In this document: positions 25,853 through 36,992 of the stretch, one piece after another
Position numbering within the stretch: position 1 is the stretch's first letter
How the letters are laid out: every line of letters begins with the position of its first letter
NCBI RefSeq assembly: GCF_000473325.1
Contig: NZ_KI421513.1
Location: 2,861,217 to 2,925,216, forward strand
Direction: 5' to 3'
DNA from: Leisingera caerulea DSM 24564
GTDB taxonomy: Bacteria; Pseudomonadota; Alphaproteobacteria; Rhodobacterales; Rhodobacteraceae
DNA: 64,000 nt
Made by a program: the position numbers and the translations under genes
The notes under the pieces: model-generated
What the model was told of the DNA's origin: nothing
What the model saw: only the letters and a program-made list of their open reading frames with translations
Databases searched by the model: none

Positions 25853-26721
25853 AGGCGCCCTCCAGGTGCGTAGACAATTTTGTCATCGTTGGTGTCGATG
25901 ACGACTGTCATGCTCCGCTTCTGCGGGGGCAGCGGGCCGGTGTTCTTCATCAGGACCAGAGGGGTTTCGTTCTGCAGAATGCGGGTGCGGGCAGCGGTGC
26001 GGAGGTAGCCTGCACGGCGCAAGGTCCGGCAATAGTCCAGAATGCACTTCTGGGAGATGTCCGGGCGGGCTGGGGACAGTGCGGCAAACAGGTCAATCGG
26101 CCGGAACCGCTTCTGCTGACGCATCGCGGACCAGATTGAGCCTTCCTTCGTGCCGCGCTTGCCTTTCGCATCTTTCCGGGCTTCTGCCGGGGACTTAACG
26201 GTGAGGAAGGTTTTGCCCTGGCTGCGGCCCCACACCCTCATGATGCCGGCTTGCTTCAGACGGTTCAGGAACCGCGTCCGGATGGCTTCAGACGCGCAGA
26301 TGGAGGCTACATCCGCCGATGTGAAATAGGGGCGCTCCGAAACGTACTTCCAAATCTGCTGCTCTTCCGGGCCGCGTGGTTCGGTGGTGGGCAGTTCAAC
26401 CTCAGTGCCGTTCTGGCGCATTTTTTCCAGCAGCTTGCTAAGCCGCTCCTGCGACCAGGCGGTATCCAGCTCGCGTCCTTGCGCGGCCGCGATGATATCC
26501 GCGGCCTCATCTTTGCCCCAGACAGTATAGTACTGCGTGGAGCCTTCTTTGCCGCATTCGGTCACAAGGCCTTTACGCTGCAGCGAGCGTAAGAAATTCT
26601 GACGCGCCCAATCGCTCGCTTCGCAATAGGTAGCGACGTCTTGGTGGGTGAACCGCAGGCGGGTCTGGATGAATTCCAGGATCTCTTTTTCAGCGGCGTT
26701 GCGGGTTGTGATCCGGATCAT
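25849..26721 (-). CDS. Winged-helix phage protein downstream of MuB, unknown
   Basis: A 290-residue protein from the ATG at 26721 (MIRITTRNAAEKEILEF), which overlaps the muB stop as ATGA. At least three winged-helix-like units are visible: residues 10-60 (RFTHQDVATYCEASDWARQN), about 125-175 (YFTSADVASICASEAIRTRF) and 205-260. Repeated winged helices suggest DNA binding. Tight coupling with muB suggests a part in transposition or its control, but no known Mu protein matches. Confidence 0.7.
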   Translation of the reverse strand: MIRITTRNAAEKEILEFIQTRLRFTHQDVATYCEASDWARQNFLRSLQRKGLVTECGKEGSTQYYTVWGKDEAADIIAAAQGRELDTAWSQERLSKLLEKMRQNGTEVELPTTEPRGPEEQQIWKYVSERPYFTSADVASICASEAIRTRFLNRLKQAGIMRVWGRSQGKTFLTVKSPAEARKDAKGKRGTKEGSIWSAMRQQKRFRPIDLFAALSPARPDISQKCILDYCRTLRRAGYLRTAARTRILQNETPLVLMKNTGPLPPQKRSMTVVIDTNDDKIVYAPGGRL

Positions 26722-27461
26722 TTCAACCCCCGGCGCGGGCTGGGTGCGTCCTTGCGGCGGAATTCGATGCCGCCCCAATCCTGAAGGGATATAGCGGTCT
26801 GGCCCATCTTACGCGCCTCGCTCTTGACCTGGGCAAGATCTGTCACCATGCGCCGAACGTTGCCGGTGTTGCGCTCCAGGATGGCGTCCAGAAGATCATC
26901 GGCAACCTCCACGCCTTCGGCGTAGACGCTGGCCAGCAAGCCCGCGTCTTTCAGGGTCGCGGGCTGGGCAGCCACCCAGGACATGACCCGGCTGTCGATG
27001 AGTTCGTATTTACGGAGCTTCTGCGGAAATTCCTCCATGCCGATCATGATGACCGGTGTGTCCGACCCATCGTGCAGGTCCCGGATCAGCTCGATGACGC
27101 CGCGGCGGAAGGCATAGTCAGCCTCGTCAACGATCAGAGTCCGGCCGTCCTGCGCCAGCGCCTCGCAAGCCTGCAGAACCATATCAGGCACGACCCGCTT
27201 GGGCGGGAGGCCCAGTTCGTGCAACAGCCGTTCCAGGAAGGTCTTCTTAGTCCAGTCGCCCTGCATGGAAATATGGATGACGTCAAACGCCGACGCGCAG
27301 AAAATCGCCCCGAACGTCTTGCCATAGCCCGGATAGCCGTAAAATACGCCCAATCCAGGCATTCCAAAGGTCCGGTTCTGCAGCTCCTTTACCAGTGCTG
27401 CCATCGTTGCAACGTTGGTCAGCGGCTGTACGCTATTGCCGATTTCCAATGTCTGTGTCAT
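26718..27461 (-). CDS. DNA transposition protein B (MuB-like AAA+ ATPase)
   Basis: A 247-residue ATPase with Walker A GYPGYGKT (residues 42-49) and Walker B TLIVDEADYAF (about 113-123), followed by a sensor-like VIMIGMEEFP. The C-terminal part has LDAILERNTGNVRRMVTDLA as in AAA+ lids. MuB-type proteins form filaments on target DNA, choose the target site and stimulate MuA; they also give target immunity. Compared with Mu B (about 312 residues) it lacks the long N-terminal domain, as is common in transposable phages of alphaproteobacteria. Confidence 0.93.
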   Translation of the reverse strand: MTQTLEIGNSVQPLTNVATMAALVKELQNRTFGMPGLGVFYGYPGYGKTFGAIFCASAFDVIHISMQGDWTKKTFLERLLHELGLPPKRVVPDMVLQACEALAQDGRTLIVDEADYAFRRGVIELIRDLHDGSDTPVIMIGMEEFPQKLRKYELIDSRVMSWVAAQPATLKDAGLLASVYAEGVEVADDLLDAILERNTGNVRRMVTDLAQVKSEARKMGQTAISLQDWGGIEFRRKDAPSPRRGLK

Positions 27462-27527: not shown

Positions 27528-29660
27528 CTACCCGGCGTTATTGCCGCCGAATGCCTGCTTCAGCGCTGCCAGCGCCTCGTATTCCGAATGGCTTTGGTAG
27601 CCCTCCAGCCAGGCCGCTTCGCGGTCCCCGACAGGGTCGCCGTTCTGCTGCCTGCGCTCGATGTCCTGCGCCTGGCTGAACCGTTCTTCCGGTGTACCTG
27701 CCACCTTGAATTCCTCCTGTTTGCTTGCAGGCGCAGGCTTCTTACGCCCGCCATCCATTTCCAGGATAAGTGCTTCCTGCGCGGCTTCCGCGTTGGGGTC
27801 GGAATGCTGCCGGAAGTTTGAAACCCTGGGAGTCTTCGCGAACACTGGCTTCACCACCTTGGCTTCCATCAGGGCCGTGGTTTCCTCGCGATGCTTGTTC
27901 AGGTCGGCGGCAAGCTGCTCTGGCGAGTGCGGGGCGTGCAGCTCGGCAAGTTTCTTCTCCGCCTTGGCAATCTGACGCTTTCGCTTTGCGGTGGCACGTG
28001 CGCCTTCCAAGTCGAAGAAACCGATCTTCTGCTGGCACTCGGCAAAGCCCAGGTAACCGCCTTCGGGACCGTAGATATGGACGCCGCTGTGCAGGTCCTC
28101 CGGGTCAAAGCGCACCACGATCTTGCGGTTGGCTTCCTGGCTCATCCAGTCGCAGTGGTAGACATTGCCGTGGAAGGTCAGGCTGCCGTTGTGCTTGTGC
28201 AGCTTGGCGGTGTCTTGGCCCATCAGCCAGAGATTGCGCTGTTCCTCCGTCGCCTTCAGAACCGGCGCCGAGGCGTAGCTTTCCGCGAAGGTCTCGTCGA
28301 AGGACCGGCCTTTTGCGGTATCGGAGCGACGCCCGGTGCGGGCATTGTGCTCTTCAATGCCCTCTTCAAACACTTCCAGGAACTCGGCCGCATTGATCGC
28401 GCGGCTGCCGTAGTTTTCCGGCTTGGCGGTCGGGCGGTTTCCGACATAGGCGCCTGCGAACCGGGGGTCCTTGGCGATAACCTTGGCCACGTCCCCAAAG
28501 CCGCGTTCAATCGGCTTGGACTGGCCGCTGGCGAGGTTTGCCCAGTGCATCTTGATGCCCAGCAATGGCAGAACGCCGACCGGGTCATCCTCGCGGATCT
28601 TGAACCGGAACCGGGTAGGAGCGCCGGCGGTCATCCACTTGTTCGCAAATTCGTGGCCGTTGTCGAACAGGCAGCGCTTGGGGATGCCCCAGGTGTCGAC
28701 CATTTCGCCGAAGGCGGCCATCACCATGACCTTGTTGGGGTCGTGGTCCACACGCCAGGACAGGAACTTGCCGGAATACAGGTCCTGGAACACAACGATC
28801 TGAGGCCGGTTCACGGTGCCGTCGGGCCATTTCACAAAGACGTCGATCTTGTGGCAGTCCGCGTTCACGGCTTCCATCGCGTGAAGGCCGGTGCGGTCGC
28901 GGATCTGAGCCGGGAAGCAGCGCATAAGGCCTTTGACGCCTTGGCGCAGATAGGCCTGGGTTGTGCGCTGCACCTCGGCATCCAGCCAGCGCTTGGCAGT
29001 TTTTTGGATCGGGTAGGGCCAGCCTTCCCGCTCCGCGATTTTCACCGCGGATCTGTAGGAGGGAGCGAAGTCCGGGCCTTCCAGCCGCAGGTAGGCGCTC
29101 TTGAGCCAGTCCATGAAGGGCTTGTACTGGGTGCGGTCTTCCTTCCTGACACGCTTCCTGGGCGGCTGAGGCGCCAGGTATGCGAGACGGTCTTCGGCCG
29201 CGACACCTTCGGCCAACTCCATCCAGTTATACACCGTGCGAGGGCTGACGCTCACCTCCGCCGCGATGATTGCCACAGCCTGCACTTGGGTCGTTCCGCT
29301 GCTGTGCAGCAGCTCCACCTTGTTCAGGGCATCCAGGCGGCGTTGGCCTTCAGCTTTGGCAGCGTCGGAGAGCTTTTCGTAAGCCAGCCAGGCCGTCGTC
29401 CGGTCGGGAGGTTCTGCAGGGGCTTTAACGCCCTGTTCAAAGAGCTTTAAACGGGCTTCTAGCGGCAGCAAAGACCAGTGGAAGAACAGACCGCCGCCGC
29501 GGCCCGGCCTGCGCTTCAGCGCCTCCTGATTGTCCTTCCAGCCTTCCCGCTCGGCATAGGCATTCACGCCGCGGACGCTGCCGGGCAAACCGGGCAGGCG
29601 CGCAGCGGCAATATCCGCAGCGGACCACCATTCCTGTGCTGGAGACAGATCGCCGGTCAC
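27528..29660 (-). CDS. DDE transposase (MuA-like)
   Basis: A 710-residue protein. Residues 8-75 are the Mu-type winged DNA-binding domain (WWSAADIAAARLPGLPGSVR), 85-230 the HTH domains binding the ends, and 255-420 the RNase H-like catalytic core. The catalytic triad is D268 (VNADCHKID), D333 (KRCLFDNGHEF) and E385 (SKPIERGFGD), close to D269, D336 and E392 of Mu. The C-terminal 200 residues hold the beta-barrel and the region that contacts MuB and ClpX. It overlaps the ParB-like gene by four bases. All catalytic residues are intact, so the prophage may still transpose. Confidence 0.96.
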   Translation of the reverse strand: MTGDLSPAQEWWSAADIAAARLPGLPGSVRGVNAYAEREGWKDNQEALKRRPGRGGGLFFHWSLLPLEARLKLFEQGVKAPAEPPDRTTAWLAYEKLSDAAKAEGQRRLDALNKVELLHSSGTTQVQAVAIIAAEVSVSPRTVYNWMELAEGVAAEDRLAYLAPQPPRKRVRKEDRTQYKPFMDWLKSAYLRLEGPDFAPSYRSAVKIAEREGWPYPIQKTAKRWLDAEVQRTTQAYLRQGVKGLMRCFPAQIRDRTGLHAMEAVNADCHKIDVFVKWPDGTVNRPQIVVFQDLYSGKFLSWRVDHDPNKVMVMAAFGEMVDTWGIPKRCLFDNGHEFANKWMTAGAPTRFRFKIREDDPVGVLPLLGIKMHWANLASGQSKPIERGFGDVAKVIAKDPRFAGAYVGNRPTAKPENYGSRAINAAEFLEVFEEGIEEHNARTGRRSDTAKGRSFDETFAESYASAPVLKATEEQRNLWLMGQDTAKLHKHNGSLTFHGNVYHCDWMSQEANRKIVVRFDPEDLHSGVHIYGPEGGYLGFAECQQKIGFFDLEGARATAKRKRQIAKAEKKLAELHAPHSPEQLAADLNKHREETTALMEAKVVKPVFAKTPRVSNFRQHSDPNAEAAQEALILEMDGGRKKPAPASKQEEFKVAGTPEERFSQAQDIERRQQNGDPVGDREAAWLEGYQSHSEYEALAALKQAFGGNNAG

Positions 29661-30544
29661 TGTGCCGCCTCCCGCTTACTGGAAAAAGGCACGACTTCAC
29701 CCGCGGCGGCTTGCTGCTGGGCCTCGGCCAGCAAGGCAGCCAGGTCGTCGAAGTGGGTGCGGACAAATTGCAGCCGCGCGGCCTTTGATGCCCGGGAAAA
29801 GGCGTCGCCGATCTTGCCGGACTGCGCTTCCGCGGAAGACACCGTCGCCGCTCCGGGGGCCTTCTTCCGGTCCAGCACCTCTTTCGCGGATTTCGCCTCG
29901 CCTGCTCCCAAGGCTGCGCAGATCTCGCTGCGGTCTGACTGCGCACCGCATTTGGCGATGTGTTCCAGGTCCTTAAATTGCACCCTGTTCGGGGCGCAGC
30001 GGAGTTGGCCGATTTCCTCTTTGGACAGCTTTTCGCCGACGCTAATCAGGCGGAAGATCTGGCGCTCTCCCTTGCCGAACACCTCTGCGGCGTTGGCGGC
30101 GAACGATGCAACTGACATTTTGTCAGTTGCATTCCAGCGGCCGCGCGCCCCAGCTTTGCCCCGGGTGCTATCCGGATTGTCCAGCTCATACAGCTTCTTG
30201 TGCTCCGCCAGGAACACCGCCATGTCCAGCGGGGTCAGCGGAGCGCCGGCGACGTTGGCGTCAACCTCAATGCGGATCGCCTCGTCATTGGTGCATTCGG
30301 TGACCTTGACTGGCACTTCATCCAGCCCGGCCTCCCTGGCGGCGGTCAGCCGGTGCAGGCCGTCCATCAGCCGGTAGCCGTCCTTGATCCGGCGCACCAG
30401 CAGCGGCTGCAGGATGCCGCCCACCTCTTGGATGGATGAAACGATGCTGGCCACCGCCGTGGCGGAGGCGGTACGCAGGCGTTCCTCCACCTGGATGTCG
30501 GCAACGGGCAGCGTTTGAATTTTCTGCCAATTCGGAGGGGTCAT
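29657..30544 (-). CDS. ParB-like N-terminal domain protein in the early operon
   Basis: A 295-residue protein from the ATG at 30544 (MTPPNWQKIQTLPVADIQVE). Residues 10-100 form a ParB/sulfiredoxin fold with VSSIQEVGGILQPLLVRR and the nucleotide-binding DGLHRLTAAREAG. Residues 140-200 have HTH-like character (AEVFGKGERQIFRLISVGEK). The early position in front of muA, with a four-base overlap, is common in transposable phages of Rhodobacteraceae. It may bind DNA as a CTPase clamp or act as an early regulator; partner sites (parS-like) were not found. Confidence 0.8.
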   Translation of the reverse strand: MTPPNWQKIQTLPVADIQVEERLRTASATAVASIVSSIQEVGGILQPLLVRRIKDGYRLMDGLHRLTAAREAGLDEVPVKVTECTNDEAIRIEVDANVAGAPLTPLDMAVFLAEHKKLYELDNPDSTRGKAGARGRWNATDKMSVASFAANAAEVFGKGERQIFRLISVGEKLSKEEIGQLRCAPNRVQFKDLEHIAKCGAQSDRSEICAALGAGEAKSAKEVLDRKKAPGAATVSSAEAQSGKIGDAFSRASKAARLQFVRTHFDDLAALLAEAQQQAAAGEVVPFSSKREAAQ

Positions 30545-30672
30545 TGGGGATGCTCCTTCGTGTTGAATTTGAGGGTGTTCATGGGCCGGTGTGCCGTTCT
30601 CTGCAGCTTGACCGGGGGACTGGGCGTGCAAGCCAGGCGTTACACCGCCTTTTATGACCTGCGCGCCGGGCA

Positions 30673-30966
30673 TCAGGGGCGGCCTGCGGTAGCGGCTGCC
30701 AGAAGCTCGCTGAGGTCGTGCAAGGCACCGTCCACCGTCAGTGCCACCGTCAGATCAGCCACCCGCTGCTGGGTGGCGCCGAGCCGGTCAGCGGCGGCGT
30801 CAAGTTCGTCGCTGAACTGCCCGGTGTCGCGCTGACCGGACTGCGCCAAGGTCTTATCAGCCGCGTCAAATGCCTCACGTGCGCGGGCATACTCTTTGGC
30901 GGCCTCGATCACCGCTTTGGCGCGTTCATGCGGTGTCTTGGGAAAGTCGAAGATTTCGGCACTCAT
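30673..30966 (-). CDS. Small helical early protein, unknown
   Basis: A 97-residue helical protein (AVIEAAKEYARAREAFDAAD, TQQRVADLTVALTVDGALH), possibly coiled coil. It overlaps the upstream membrane-protein gene by four bases. The 128-bp gap to the ParB-like gene holds only a 13-codon open frame (30541-30582) ending on the parB start. Confidence 0.62.
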   Translation of the reverse strand: MSAEIFDFPKTPHERAKAVIEAAKEYARAREAFDAADKTLAQSGQRDTGQFSDELDAAADRLGATQQRVADLTVALTVDGALHDLSELLAAATAGRP

Positions 30967-31282: not shown

Positions 31283-31579
31283 TCAGGAAGCGCGAATTAT
31301 TGAAGCGAGTTGCTCGATCTTTATCGGATCGAGGTTTACGCCATAGCGCACTGCATCTGTCAGGATCTGACGTTGCAGCTCGTATGCAAGCTCCAGTCGC
31401 AGGTTGTTCGGGTTCTTCAGGAAGTTCGAAACCCGGTTTTTTGAGCCGGGCTTTCCCTCGACTAAGAGGTAGTGACTTGCGCGGGTGGGGAGCCGGTCCA
31501 GTGATCCTTCCACCCACCGCGCAAACTGTTCAGGGGAGGGGATCACGGGGACAATGTGCTGGTGAGGTGTGTTGATCAT
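31283..31579 (-). CDS. Ner/Cro-like early protein
   Basis: A 98-residue protein, first gene of the leftward early operon and divergent from the repressor, the position of ner in Mu. Residues 30-75 could form a HTH (GSKNRVSNFLKNPNNLRLEL). In Mu, Ner represses both the early and the repressor promoter after infection. Assignment is by position plus HTH-like sequence; identity with Ner proteins is not evident. Confidence 0.6.
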   Translation of the reverse strand: MINTPHQHIVPVIPSPEQFARWVEGSLDRLPTRASHYLLVEGKPGSKNRVSNFLKNPNNLRLELAYELQRQILTDAVRYGVNLDPIKIEQLASIIRAS

Positions 31580-31590
31580 CGTTGTCTCGC

Positions 31591-31659
31591 ATTATGATTG
31601 ATGCAAGAAAATCATAAGAGATTATGATTTGCAACGGAAAATTATGACAAAAATCATAA
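31591..31659. promoter_or_regulatory. Cluster of five repressor/Ner operator half-sites
   Basis: TTATGAT or its complement occurs at 31592-31598 (+), 31611-31617 (-), 31622-31628 (+), 31642-31648 (+, last base C) and 31653-31659 (-). Starts are 19, 11, 20 and 11 bp apart, i.e. on one face of the helix. 31611-31628 is a perfect dyad ATCATAAGAGATTATGAT. The -10 element of the early promoter lies within the fourth half-site. Confidence 0.75.
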
Positions 31660-31669
31660 AATCGGTTAA
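31634..31669 (-). promoter_or_regulatory. Inferred leftward early promoter
   Basis: On the minus strand TTAACC (31669-31664), 17 bp, then CATAAT (31646-31641), giving a start near 31634, 55 bp before the Ner-like ATG. The weak -35 abuts the lux box, as in promoters activated by LuxR. Confidence 0.5.
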
Positions 31670-31688
31670 CCTGCAAAAAAATACAGGT
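31669..31688. promoter_or_regulatory. lux box in the phage switch region
   Basis: The 20-bp sequence ACCTGCAAAAAAATACAGGT has perfect inverted ACCTG/CAGGT arms and agrees with the Vibrio fischeri lux box (ACCTGTAGGATCGTACAGGT) at 14 of 20 positions, including all ten arm positions; flanking A and T extend the symmetry to 22 bp. Its centre is at -44.5 relative to both inferred starts at 31634 (early operon) and 31723 (repressor). It is the likely target of the LuxR protein encoded 0.5 kb away. Confidence 0.8.
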
Positions 31689-31723
31689 TGAGAAAATCAC
31701 ATGCCAGCGTGATAACCTTGCTC
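31688..31723 (+). promoter_or_regulatory. Inferred repressor promoter
   Basis: TTGAGA (31688-31693), 17 bp, GATAAC (31711-31716), start near 31723 and GGAG before the repressor ATG at 31742. The first T of the -35 is the last base of the lux box. Confidence 0.5.
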
Positions 31724-31741: not shown

Positions 31742-32077
31742 ATGGATGGCGTGGATTGGGAAAGGCGGCGGCGCAACATACGCATCTTGATGGCCGCACA
31801 AGGGACTAACCCGACGAAGGTGGCCAACTCTGTTGGGCTTTCACCGAATACGCTGTCGAAGTTCACAAGCGGCTCAACTGCCACACTAAGCCACCGGTCT
31901 ATTACCAAAGTCGTTAGTGCGCTCGGCCTATCGGCAGTCGAGGATCTCGATACCGATAACCCTTTGAACAACCCTCGAGCTGTTTTGCGTCAACTTATCG
32001 AAGACCTGCCTGACGAAGTTCTCGACCCGCTGCTTCGGGAGCTGGAGGTTCGGTTTTCTGAGCACCTTCAGGATTAG
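31742..32077 (+). CDS. Phage repressor, small HTH protein
   Basis: A 111-residue protein with a HTH_3/XRE-type domain at residues 8-65 (RRRRNIRILMAAQ, TKVANSVGLSPNTLSKF). The C-terminus is a short helical part (LRQLIEDLPDEVLDPLLREL), probably for dimerisation. Start at 31742 is set by GGAG seven bases before; the longer frame from 31688 begins inside the lux box. It is divergent from the early operon like Mu c, and is followed by a strong terminator. It is shorter than Mu c and has no protease-like domain, so induction by RecA-driven self-cleavage is not expected. Confidence 0.82.
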   Translation: MDGVDWERRRRNIRILMAAQGTNPTKVANSVGLSPNTLSKFTSGSTATLSHRSITKVVSALGLSAVEDLDTDNPLNNPRAVLRQLIEDLPDEVLDPLLRELEVRFSEHLQD

Positions 32078-32108: not shown

Positions 32109-32141
32109 GAGCGCCTCCCGTGGGAGGCGCTCAATTGTTTT
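32109..32141 (+). terminator. Terminator behind the repressor gene
   Basis: Perfect 11-bp stem GAGCGCCTCCC/GGGAGGCGCTC with a two-base loop (32109-32132), followed by AATTGTTTTG. It separates the repressor transcript from luxR, so luxR needs its own promoter. Confidence 0.88.
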
Positions 32142-32187: not shown

Positions 32188-32221
32188 TTGACACGTTATG
32201 AAAAATCACGCTAGATTATGA
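32188..32221 (+). promoter_or_regulatory. luxR promoter with two operator half-sites
   Basis: TTGACA (32188-32193), 18 bp, TAGATT (32212-32217). Half-sites TTATGA at 32196-32201 and 32216-32221 are 20 bp apart, the same sequence and spacing as two half-sites of the switch region, and lie over the spacer and -10. The 12-bp CTCATTTCGGGT at 32164-32175 is repeated before luxI. Confidence 0.62.
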
Positions 32222-32233
32222 AAATGCTCATTT

Positions 32234-32854
32234 ATGGAGATTGTTTTCACAGTGATGCAATTTATGCAAGAGAGATTTTCCGGGTACGGGTATGTCATCT
32301 TGGCTCCTGGTGAGGTGCCGAGTTCAGCTGAAACCAACTTCGGGGAAGAGTGGCACAAGCGGTACTTTGACTTAAAATTCCATACGGTTGACCCAGTTTT
32401 CCATTTTACCAGGCAGTGCCGGGGGAGGTCTTCGGTCCGCTTGCTGGCGGCAGATGAAATGGCTTCACCACTTTATGAGGAAGCTCGGTGTTTTGGTGCG
32501 GACAGCAACTTCATTTCCATCTCAGTAATAGGAGGCAGCAAGATGGTGTTTGGCGGGGTTAACCATGACCTGAACAATCATTCTGCACAAGAACTGCACG
32601 GGTATTGCCACACAGCACACCAGACTGCTCTACTAAAGAGGGTAGATGAACTGACTGATGCTCAAATCGACTTTTTGGAGATGTGCGAAGAAGGGTTGCT
32701 GGACAAGCAGATCGCTTGTGAACTCGGTGTTACTGTATCTGCCATCGCACAGCGCAAGAAGGCAGTATGCGGAAAGCTGGGGGTGGCTCACTTCAGGGCC
32801 GCTCTTTCCCTCTACTCACTTAGAAAGTGGAGCGGTATCATACCTTTGATATAG
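32234..32854 (+). CDS. LuxR-family acyl-homoserine-lactone receptor
   Basis: A 206-residue protein. The N-terminal autoinducer-binding domain keeps W40, Y44, D53 and P54 (WHKRYFDLKFHTVDP), with exactly the spacing of W57, Y61, D70 and P71 of TraR. The W85 position is Val. Residues 140-200 are the LuxR HTH (EGLLDKQIACELGVTVSAIA, then KLGVAHFRAAL); the usual Glu of the LTxxE motif is Gln. It is about 20-30 residues shorter at the N-terminus than typical LuxR proteins and no earlier in-frame start exists (TGA at 32219). Base composition is visibly more AT-rich than the phage core. luxI follows after 51 bp. Confidence 0.93.
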   Translation: MEIVFTVMQFMQERFSGYGYVILAPGEVPSSAETNFGEEWHKRYFDLKFHTVDPVFHFTRQCRGRSSVRLLAADEMASPLYEEARCFGADSNFISISVIGGSKMVFGGVNHDLNNHSAQELHGYCHTAHQTALLKRVDELTDAQIDFLEMCEEGLLDKQIACELGVTVSAIAQRKKAVCGKLGVAHFRAALSLYSLRKWSGIIPLI

Positions 32855-32857
32855 TAT

Positions 32858-32894
32858 CTCATTTCGGGTAAAATCATAATCCGTTATGTAATAT
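32858..32894 (+). promoter_or_regulatory. luxI upstream region with operator dyad
   Basis: ATCATAA (32873-32879), four bases, TTATGTA (32884-32890) matches the switch dyad ATCATAAGAGATTATGAT at 31611-31628 in arms and spacing except for two arm bases. The 12-bp CTCATTTCGGGT repeat lies at 32858-32869. A TAATAT -10-like element overlaps its right side. I see no lux box here. Confidence 0.6.
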
Positions 32895-32905
32895 GGATAC
32901 TTCGG

Positions 32906-33532
32906 ATGATTTCCACACATCTCGTCGACCTTACCAACCCAAAAAGCAGAGCGGATCTATATACCGCTTGTCTTCGTTTGCGCAGAGACGTGTTCATTTC
33001 GTCAATGGGCTGGAACCTGCACGAAAGCTTCGGCTGCGAGTTTGATCAGTATGACATTCCTGCGTCGATTCATATTGCAGCAGTTGCCGACGGGAAGCTA
33101 GTTGGGTGCATTCGCCTGCTTCGTACAGACAGCGAGCACAGCGGTACTACCTACATGATACTGGATGCGCACAGGGGCAACATTCCCAACCTACCTGCAA
33201 ACATCATGTATAAAGAGCTCGCTTCTAGCAACGTTTGGGAGGCGTCGCGGCTGGCGATTTCCTCCTCGGTTGACCGAGCAGAGAGAAATGCCGTGTTGAT
33301 TGCTTTAGTTTCAGCTGCTCGGGAGCATGTGCTTTCGAAGGGCGGTGACACAATGTTGGGTCTGATGAACCCAGTATTTATCAGAGTGTTCCGCAGAGCA
33401 GGGTTCGAAGTGGTACGGTTCGGTCCGGTAACCGATCAGAGAGATGGGCGCATTTGCGTTCTCCGTTGGGACTTTGAGAAGCGTCCGACACATGCCCAAG
33501 ACACCGGAGCAGCCGCCCTCGCCCTTCAATGA
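32906..33532 (+). CDS. LuxI-family acyl-homoserine-lactone synthase
   Basis: A 208-residue protein with all residues conserved in LuxI enzymes: R26, F30 and W36 (RLRRDVFISSMGW), D47 and D50 (EFDQYD), R70 (GCIRLLR), E112 and R115 (WEASRLAIS). It should make an N-acyl-homoserine lactone from S-adenosylmethionine and an acyl carrier protein; the acyl chain cannot be read from sequence. It is encoded 51 bp after luxR on the same strand, so receptor and signal form one unit. It lies between the phage repressor and the phage left end, with operator-like sequences shared with the phage switch. Confidence 0.95.
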   Translation: MISTHLVDLTNPKSRADLYTACLRLRRDVFISSMGWNLHESFGCEFDQYDIPASIHIAAVADGKLVGCIRLLRTDSEHSGTTYMILDAHRGNIPNLPANIMYKELASSNVWEASRLAISSSVDRAERNAVLIALVSAAREHVLSKGGDTMLGLMNPVFIRVFRRAGFEVVRFGPVTDQRDGRICVLRWDFEKRPTHAQDTGAAALALQ

Positions 33533-34798: not shown

Positions 34799-35214
34799 TA
34801 GAGCGGCGTTGACTAGATGAGCGGTAGTTCTGCCCACGCGGTGAAAAGTCTGCATAGGGAGCTGCTGCTTATGAGATGGGCGCTTCCGAACTGATGTCGC
34901 TTTCGCTCCCTGGGCTTGGGCCCCTACTAATACGCTTCGGCTATAAGGTGCGCAGGGAGCCCACCCGCTACGTCTGCAGTGATGACGGAAGAGAGTATCG
35001 GGCTTTCCGCATGGGTTGCGACCCCAGCGTGAACAATAGCCTCGTTGTCCGTCATTGCCTTCCTTGTTTGGCTCCGGCATTGGAATGTGAGCTGGAAGGG
35101 GCCGCGTAGTGAAACATGGCCGTCAATATTGAACATAACTGCGCTTATCGGGAGCCTAGCCTCCCTCGCGCCAAAATAAGCCTACTCAATTACAATCTGT
35201 ATCGGTGGCTAGGG
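34799..35214. other. 416-bp stretch without a convincing gene
   Basis: Only overlapping short frames on opposite strands (34876-35109 plus, 34748-35080 minus) with no ribosome binding site and no recognisable product. The composition and Cys/Arg-rich translations suggest a decayed gene or an old insertion remnant. No inverted repeats of an IS were seen. Confidence 0.5.
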
Positions 35215-36291: not shown

Positions 36292-36992
36292 CAAGGGCTA
36301 CCTGTTTGTGGTTCGACGGGTTCAACTTTTGGCAAACCTCTGACCCCAAGGTACAACTGTCAAGCTGTTATCCGGCAGCCTTGAGTAGGACTCTCCAAGC
36401 GGAAAAACAGTTCCAAGTTCCGGAAGCCGAGGTTGCCCGCAAATTTTGCTTAAGGTCATGTTATCTAAAGAGTAATCCAATACTAGGAATTGCCCGCGGG
36501 TTTTTGGAGCCAGTTCAAAGTTCGGGACCGCGATTTTAGCAGACTTCCTGCCGCCGCTTTCGCGTTAAAACCCTGTTTTACGGGCCTTTCAGGGGTGTTT
36601 GCGAGTTTGCAACGGTAAGTGTCCCAGAATTGCCTTCAGGCGCCATGTCGGCCATTTTGCCGAGTATTGAAGGACAAACGCTCCGGGCCTGCCCTCAGCC
36701 GCAAACCTTCCTGAAAGCCCTTTTTTATATGCCGCCATCCGGCTTCATTCGGCTTCATCCTGCCTCATCCGGTTACTGCAATATCAAGTGTCTCCTAACA
36801 GCGCAATCCGCCTGCCCGCAGCGGGCAAACTGCCGGCGGACACCCTGGCTGGGGCTCCCGCACCGGCACCGATCACAGGCTGGAGCGGGAGGAGGGAAAT
36901 CCCGAAGGTGCGCGGCGGCACCTGGGCCGGGGCCCTGCCGCGCGGCATTTCGGCCATTGACGCGGCGGTGCCGCGGGAACAGTGTCAGGGGC
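36292..36992. other. Gene-free region holding the phage left end and glnE upstream sequence
   Basis: No gene is convincing; the glnE frame is open back to 36630 only by chance. An imperfect inverted repeat lies at 36582-36603 (GGGCCTTTCAGGGGTGTTTGCG) and, in reverse, 36700-36720; these could be transposase-binding sites, which are multiple and not all in one orientation in Mu. Candidate terminal CA dinucleotides are 36736-36737 and 36779-36780. Everything after about 36.78 kb is GC-rich host sequence. Confidence 0.5.
36737..36776. repeat. Four tandem 10-bp repeats at the phage/host boundary
   Basis: ATCCGGCTTC, ATTCGGCTTC, ATCCTGCCTC and ATCCGGTTAC follow each other without gap. The 10-bp period is one helical turn. 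They lie between the two candidate phage termini. Confidence 0.7.

Follow-up and report, generated by a model that had tools for sequence, protein, structure and literature searches.

The window (the whole stretch of 64,000 nucleotides of Leisingera caerulea DSM 24564 DNA that was analysed) holds a prophage carrying the markers of a Mu-like phage, a MuA transposase and a MuB-like ATPase. Within this prophage xre, luxR and luxI run divergently from hth and the early genes, and a dyad resembling a lux box is situated between hth and xre-luxR-luxI; the coordinates of all features are collected in Table 1.

Table 1. Genes and sequence features at the prophage switch, in window positions (O_L and O_R, operator-like dyads left and right of the box).
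Feature	Position	Strand	Remarks
MuB-like ATPase (AAA)	26718..27461	-	AAA
MuA transposase, 710 aa	27528..29660	-	PF02914, 2.8e-50
ParB-like early gene	29657..30673	-	early gene
hth, 98 aa, first gene leftward of switch	31283..31579	-	no family match
Operator-like dyad O_L	31612..31627	.	TCATAAGAGATTATGA; covers -10 of better leftward promoter
Better predicted hth (lysis) promoter, TTGTCA-18-CATAAT, 10/12	31621..31650	-	box centre -64.5
Leftward promoter touching box, TTAACC-17-CATAAT	31641..31669	-	box centre -44.5; not conserved
lux box-like dyad	31669..31688	.	ACCTGCAAAAAAATACAGGT
Predicted xre (lysogeny) promoter, TTGAGA-17-GATAAC	31688..31716	+	box centre -44.5
Operator-like dyad O_R	31697..31712	.	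TCACATGCCAGCGTGA; centre 26 bp from box centre
xre, 111 aa, Cro/C1-type HTH	31742..32077	+	PF13443
Intrinsic terminator-like hairpin between xre and luxR	32109..32132	+	-20.2 kcal/mol
Predicted luxR promoter, TTGACA-18-TAGATT	32188..32217	+	promoter prediction
Operator-like dyad before luxR	32206..32221	.	TCACGCTAGATTATGA
luxR, 206 aa, autoinducer-binding domain + HTH	32234..32854	+	likely start 32255
Operator-like dyad before luxI	32874..32889	.	TCATAATCCGTTATGT; 9/10 positions
luxI, 208 aa, AHL synthase family	32906..33532	+	PF00765
Fragment of second, unrelated luxI type	34864..35106	+	residues 141-221, 65%

The first-pass annotation had spoken of divergent Ner-like and repressor genes. The divergent order of hth and xre stands; the name Ner-like, however, reflected position alone, as hth has no match in Pfam, PHROGs or NCBIfam; hth is the name given to the corresponding gene in a preprint on Phaeobacter inhibens T5 (PMC13345283). 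The best PDB match of a fold model of hth (pLDDT 80.7) is HipB, which at E 1.0 is not significant; xre is found in PHROGs only under the general heading 'transcriptional repressor', and neither gene has a Ner or c family homologue in Pfam, PHROGs or NCBIfam. The arrangement resembles the c/Ner switch of the transposing phage Mu, where divergent regulators lie between the early operon and the repressor, but differs from it in having no Ner or c match and in that a signal receptor and a signal synthase are encoded behind the repressor gene. The autoinducer-binding domain of LuxR (PF03472) scores 27.0 bits, over the cut-off of 23, and its GerE DNA-binding domain (PF00196) 19.2 bits, under the Pfam cut-off of 23.5 (E 9.6e-4); helices are predicted at residues 142-199 in the structure model. 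This model is confident (pLDDT 88.8), and its top PDB matches are AHL receptors, SdiA, RhlR and TraR among them (best E 3.6e-8, TM-score 0.46).

On the repressor side the prophage end reads ...GTGTCTCCTAACA at 36800, and the stretch at this end is, by eye, common to the window and loci L138 (1 difference), L139, L141 and L036, after which the sequences diverge. The listed glnE reading frame begins within this conserved prophage end (window 36630-36800), which places the prophage at the 5' end of glnE. Between the intact module and the prophage end lies the luxI fragment, seemingly the remnant of a quorum-sensing cassette that was once present and has since been replaced. A PF00765 search of the host genome found five AHL synthases; six are given in the text of the genome paper (PMC3910702).

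The lux box-like dyad and its conservation

Re-reading of the sequence bore out the dyad as first annotated: its 5-bp arms are perfect inverted repeats, and it is identical at 14 of 20 positions to the 20-bp consensus of the classical lux box. Against the core CTGnA-N6-TnCAG it scores 8/8, as a 20-bp dyad with its arms at the lux spacing. The pattern ACCTG-N10-CAGGT has a single perfect match in the 64-kb window; with one mismatch allowed there are 4 matches versus 1.69 expected, a number reached in 12 of 100 shuffles of the window, so that the dyad by itself is merely mildly unusual. In the whole genome of 5,344,419 bases no site besides 31669-31688 matches CCTGYA-W6-TRCAGG with at most one mismatch. 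Rarity in the window was rejected as proof, and conservation was taken instead as the test of the dyad.

Eleven distinct xre-luxR-luxI modules, gathered by LuxI and MuA searches, were compared: those of the window, L138 (same genus), L036 (Phaeobacter sp. 11ANDIMAR09), L037-L040, L042, L044, and L053 and L055 (41-kb elements). The LuxR proteins are 39-71% identical to that of the window, and hth was recognised in all but L044. Repeats and near copies (L007-L011, L051, L054, L056, L093 and L152-L162) were dropped, L041 and L043, with no luxR, were kept out of the eleven, and L055 was kept out of the column averages. Among 21 genomes of the host genus this module type was found in G000 and G409 only. 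Phage records held no match, and viral contigs, searched with LuxR and Xre alignments, gave no further modules of this type beyond those already known.

A lux box-like site at the same place of the switch in related prophages with luxRI, the comparison proposed together with the original annotation, was looked for and found in 10 of the 11 modules. In these ten the region between hth and xre has its best match to CTGnA-N6-TnCAG, of 7 or 8/8, at a distance of 47-63 bp upstream of the start of xre (p 0.001-0.05 each versus dinucleotide shuffles); the eleventh, L042, has 6/8 at the matching place and a better 7/8 elsewhere. The 16 box columns carry on average 1.05 bits of information versus 0.38 outside, where single columns reach 1.53 (10 sequences). 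In ungapped comparison with the window, L038-L040 share 14 of 58 bases in the left flank and 13 of 16 in the box; L053 and L055 have 7 of 16 box bases as in the window with arms at 7/8, a low identity which is due to inversion of the A/T centre. It is this conserved place in related modules that lifts the dyad above chance.

Operator-like dyads around the switch

Each of the genes hth, xre, luxR and luxI is preceded by a copy of a second dyad, TCAYR-N6-YRTGA. The copies to the left (O_L) and to the right (O_R) of the box, counted where 9 or 10 of the 10 positions agree, are each present in 10 of the 11 modules, and a dyad of this kind is found within ~30 bp of the start used for luxR in 9 of 11 and of that for luxI likewise in 9 of 11. 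(The operator counts do not include a 9/10 match that L042 has 219 bp ahead of luxR, and of the tied O_L sites in L039 the one nearer the box was taken for the spacing.) The distance from box centre to O_R centre is 26 bp in 7 of the 11 modules and 28 bp in three, and that from O_L to the box varies from 30 to 69 bp. Such near-fixed spacing of the box and O_R could reflect joint action of LuxR and Xre, or the pinning of both sites to one promoter. L042, with its box match of at best 6/8 at the matching place, has no recognisable operators; the recognition regions of both Xre and hth differ in this module, and covariation therefore cannot tell which of the two binds TCAYR. Read from sequence, the recurrence of the operators and the box-O_R spacing are new here.

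The xre-luxR gap of 156 bp holds the hairpin, the TTGACA promoter and an operator-like dyad. By eye, TTGAC is present upstream of luxR in 8 of the 11 modules, and the strong xre-luxR hairpin of the window is found also in L138; on these grounds luxR and luxI may be expressed separately from xre.

The motif outside this module type

Eight further xre-luxR-luxI modules have the same gene order and LuxR proteins of other types. In seven of them (L089 with its likely copy L141, L139, L098, L103, L005, L150 and L149) the core motif reaches 5 or 6/8 in the switch or the stretch upstream, which indicates that the box goes with the LuxR type of the window. The eighth, L140, has a 7/8 match 93 bp before xre with no TTG behind it, and its close relatives L139 and L141 are matchless there. 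As judged from these modules, a quorum-sensing switch need not carry the lux box motif, and other LuxR types must use something else. MuA proteins 73-78% identical to that of the window accompany a different xre-luxR-luxI type in L139, L140 and L141/L089, and genome G409 holds one prophage of each module type. The window's host genome contains a third kind of xre-luxR-luxI module (L004/L150, G000:C8:16711), in whose switch the operator-like dyads are built around TCACC-N6-GGTGA and the lux box motif attains at best 5/8.

Retention of the dyad in prophages lacking luxR had been named beforehand as an observation that would refute the proposed role of LuxR. Thirty-five Mu-like loci without this LuxR type were scanned in the region upstream of parB (or, where no parB was found, upstream of MuA) over 3.6 kb, in L090 over 3.3 kb; no luxR was found in 30 of them and another type is present in 5. 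L107 and L124 were too short and, like L127, in which neither parB nor MuA was found, were left out; L091, L092, L094 and L096, having little or no sequence upstream of parB, were not called luxR-less. A 7/8 match followed by TTG, which recovers 6 of 7 modules of this LuxR type, is absent from 33 of the 35 loci and present in two: in L116 it lies outside the switch, and in L090, which is without luxR, it overlaps the start of the leftward switch gene and has CTGGT as its left arm. The loose 8-base pattern is common in these loci, with at least one 7/8 match in 29 of 35 within up to 3.6 kb and 8/8 matches without TTG in L099, L102 and L121, so that the box is distinguished solely by its place and the TTG. 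Two of the loci examined retain luxI fragments: L041, in which no luxR was found, combines one with an S24-peptidase repressor (PF00717, 3.8e-26) and has no 7/8 match between 8100 and 10500, and L122 has a single 7/8 match far from the repressor. Both fragments are of the window module's luxI type and lie behind other repressors. In L148 a relative of xre stands alone between host genes, with no luxR found and at best 6/8 in the 300 bp upstream, a case that proves little because its whole switch is missing.

In 394 genomes of the family, the box followed by TTG was found with one mismatch in 12 genomes versus 6 for the reversed control; of the 6 modules known from this sample it fails to recover 2 (G259 and G262). 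Four of the twelve are the switches described here, three lie before one host XRE gene and five elsewhere. The eight matches outside the modules, two of them perfect, have no luxR found within 1.5 kb. By this count the motif goes together with this LuxR type among the phages examined, but genomes also contain it elsewhere. In L168, L171 and L174, from three genera, a lux box-like sequence followed by GTTG precedes a seemingly orthologous host XRE gene.

Promoters beside the dyad and a proposed lysogeny switch

The TTGAGA (-35) element of the predicted xre promoter overlaps the last base of the box, and the box centre is at -44.5, where LuxR activators typically sit. TTG follows the box immediately, as the -35 of the xre promoter, in 7 of the 11 modules, and three modules (the window, L036 and L040) have a leftward promoter of 9/12 that comes within 3 bp of the edge of the box; from these counts the box is taken as a site of the xre promoter.

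According to the main text of a preprint on Phaeobacter inhibens T5 (Bunsick et al., preprint July 2026, PMC13345283), the lysogeny (xre) promoter of the Mu-family Phage A needs luxR, luxI and xre, and its inhibition starts lysis. The same text describes activation of the xre promoter by LuxR with signal in both Phage A and Phage B, strong repression of the lysis promoter in lysogens, lysogeny at high signal, and exchange of hth / xre-luxR-luxI modules among Roseobacter prophages. By this description the window switch is like that of Phage A in that hth is divergent from xre-luxR-luxI and LuxI-LuxR belong to the lysogeny switch, and like the modules of Phages A and B in that modules are exchanged between phages. 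It is unlike them in cis layout: the modules there are described as a three-gene operon, whereas here a hairpin and a separate promoter and operator precede luxR and another operator precedes luxI. The main text of PMC13345283 contains none of the terms 'lux box', 'operator', 'inverted repeat', Leisingera or caerul.

The reading we prefer, at a probability of about 0.77, is that the prophage's own LuxR with AHL binds the dyad and turns on xre, favouring lysogeny at high lysogen density. The prophage LuxI would make the signal, signal-bound LuxR would bind the dyad beside the -35 of xre and turn on what is likely the lysogeny gene, and the Xre so produced would, through O_L, repress the leftward hth promoter and thereby the genes of early transposition. 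A high density of lysogens would in this way favour lysogeny, and if the signal or LuxR were lost, hth expression and transposition could begin. What the sequences show directly is the dyad itself, its place, its conservation and its spacing; we infer as likely the binding of LuxR at the dyad, the sign of the switch here and the protein that binds the operators. The sign had been left open in the first-pass annotation; the P. inhibens systems, as described in the preprint, point by analogy to lysogeny at high signal. Of the earlier proposal that a lux box lies in the genetic switch and LuxR tips it, one part is supported by the conserved site abutting the predicted xre promoter and by the requirement for LuxR with its signal, and for Xre, in the sister prophage as described (PMC13345283); the part that had LuxR act equally on two promoters is not supported.

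Because the box and O_R lie at a near-fixed distance, a composite promoter element on which LuxR would act together with Xre (or with hth, to opposite effect) is likely. A more specific version, in which the box and O_R at 26 or 28 bp form a LuxR-Xre AND gate and the operators before hth, luxR and luxI let the phage regulator dose receptor and synthase, is tentative and has somewhat less than an even chance of being right.

The dyad might instead be an operator of hth or Xre that resembles a lux box and does not belong to LuxR. It shares the 5-N6-5 layout of the TCAYR operators and lies among them, and seven of the eight modules with the same gene order and other LuxR types do without it. However, a regulator of all the genes would be expected to have sites before luxR and luxI as well, and it is the TCAYR operator that has such further copies, whereas the box has no second perfect match in the window or the genome; the arms and spacing of the dyad moreover match those of the lux box, and its position is the one usual for LuxR activators. 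This alternative is accordingly judged unlikely. Binding by LuxR, the preferred reading, had originally been proposed to affect both divergent promoters equally and so to tip the switch either way. Both promoters are present in the window as they had been drawn, each touching the box and placing its centre at -44.5, and L036 has its 9/12 leftward match at the edge. The leftward promoter is not conserved, though: in the other 8 of 11 modules the sequence at the box edge scores merely 5 to 7/12 (7 in L138, despite an identical box), and the window and L138 have a 10/12 leftward promoter farther from the box, with its -10 inside O_L. Symmetric control was for this reason rejected, and since the lysis promoter of P. 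inhibens T5 is described as strongly repressed in lysogens (PMC13345283), equal action has very little probability. That the dyad has no function and is a palindrome left over or arisen by chance, as its merely mild rarity in the window and the two perfect box-TTG matches elsewhere in the 394 genomes might suggest, is scarcely credible given a place kept in 10 of 11 modules despite flanks as diverged as those of L038-L040.

A requirement for two regulators is also described for the Aeromonas phages ARM81ld and Apop (PMC10432266, PMC9894119), which are like the present prophage in encoding a LuxR with a partner XRE; the promoter there needs both LuxR with signal and XRE, by a mechanism that in the words of the source 'remains to be determined' (PMC10432266). 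They differ in responding to the host's signal and in being linear plasmid-like phages, and in them the target promotes lysis, the cI repressor being inhibited by a small protein. The Vibrio fischeri lux box at luxI (PMC5601948) is like the window dyad in its CTGTA-N6-TACAG core and is there described as a site of LuxR-AHL; the window dyad differs from it in lying in a phage switch, in its A-rich centre and in having a second operator at near-fixed distance. The V. fischeri box serves luxI, whereas the window box would drive xre and not luxI directly.

The module is of a known kind, and the cis layout is the new part. Counting of lysogens by phages through AHL has just been described, and the accounts consulted (PMC13345283, PMC10432266), in the text available, name no DNA site for a phage LuxR at the switch; a literature search of titles and abstract openings, with most subscription journals outside its coverage, showed no report of a lux box in a prophage switch among the papers listed. 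In the window there is now a defined 20-bp target with a second operator spaced almost constantly from it, and the operators are laid out over four promoters; these sites make the dual requirement for LuxR and XRE directly testable. The AND gate, if true, would be the cis basis of that unexplained requirement in phage quorum-sensing switches.

In Pseudovibrio (L046, L047 and L057) a distant luxI (26-27%) lies near MuA/MuB-like genes, possibly a further type of phage quorum sensing.
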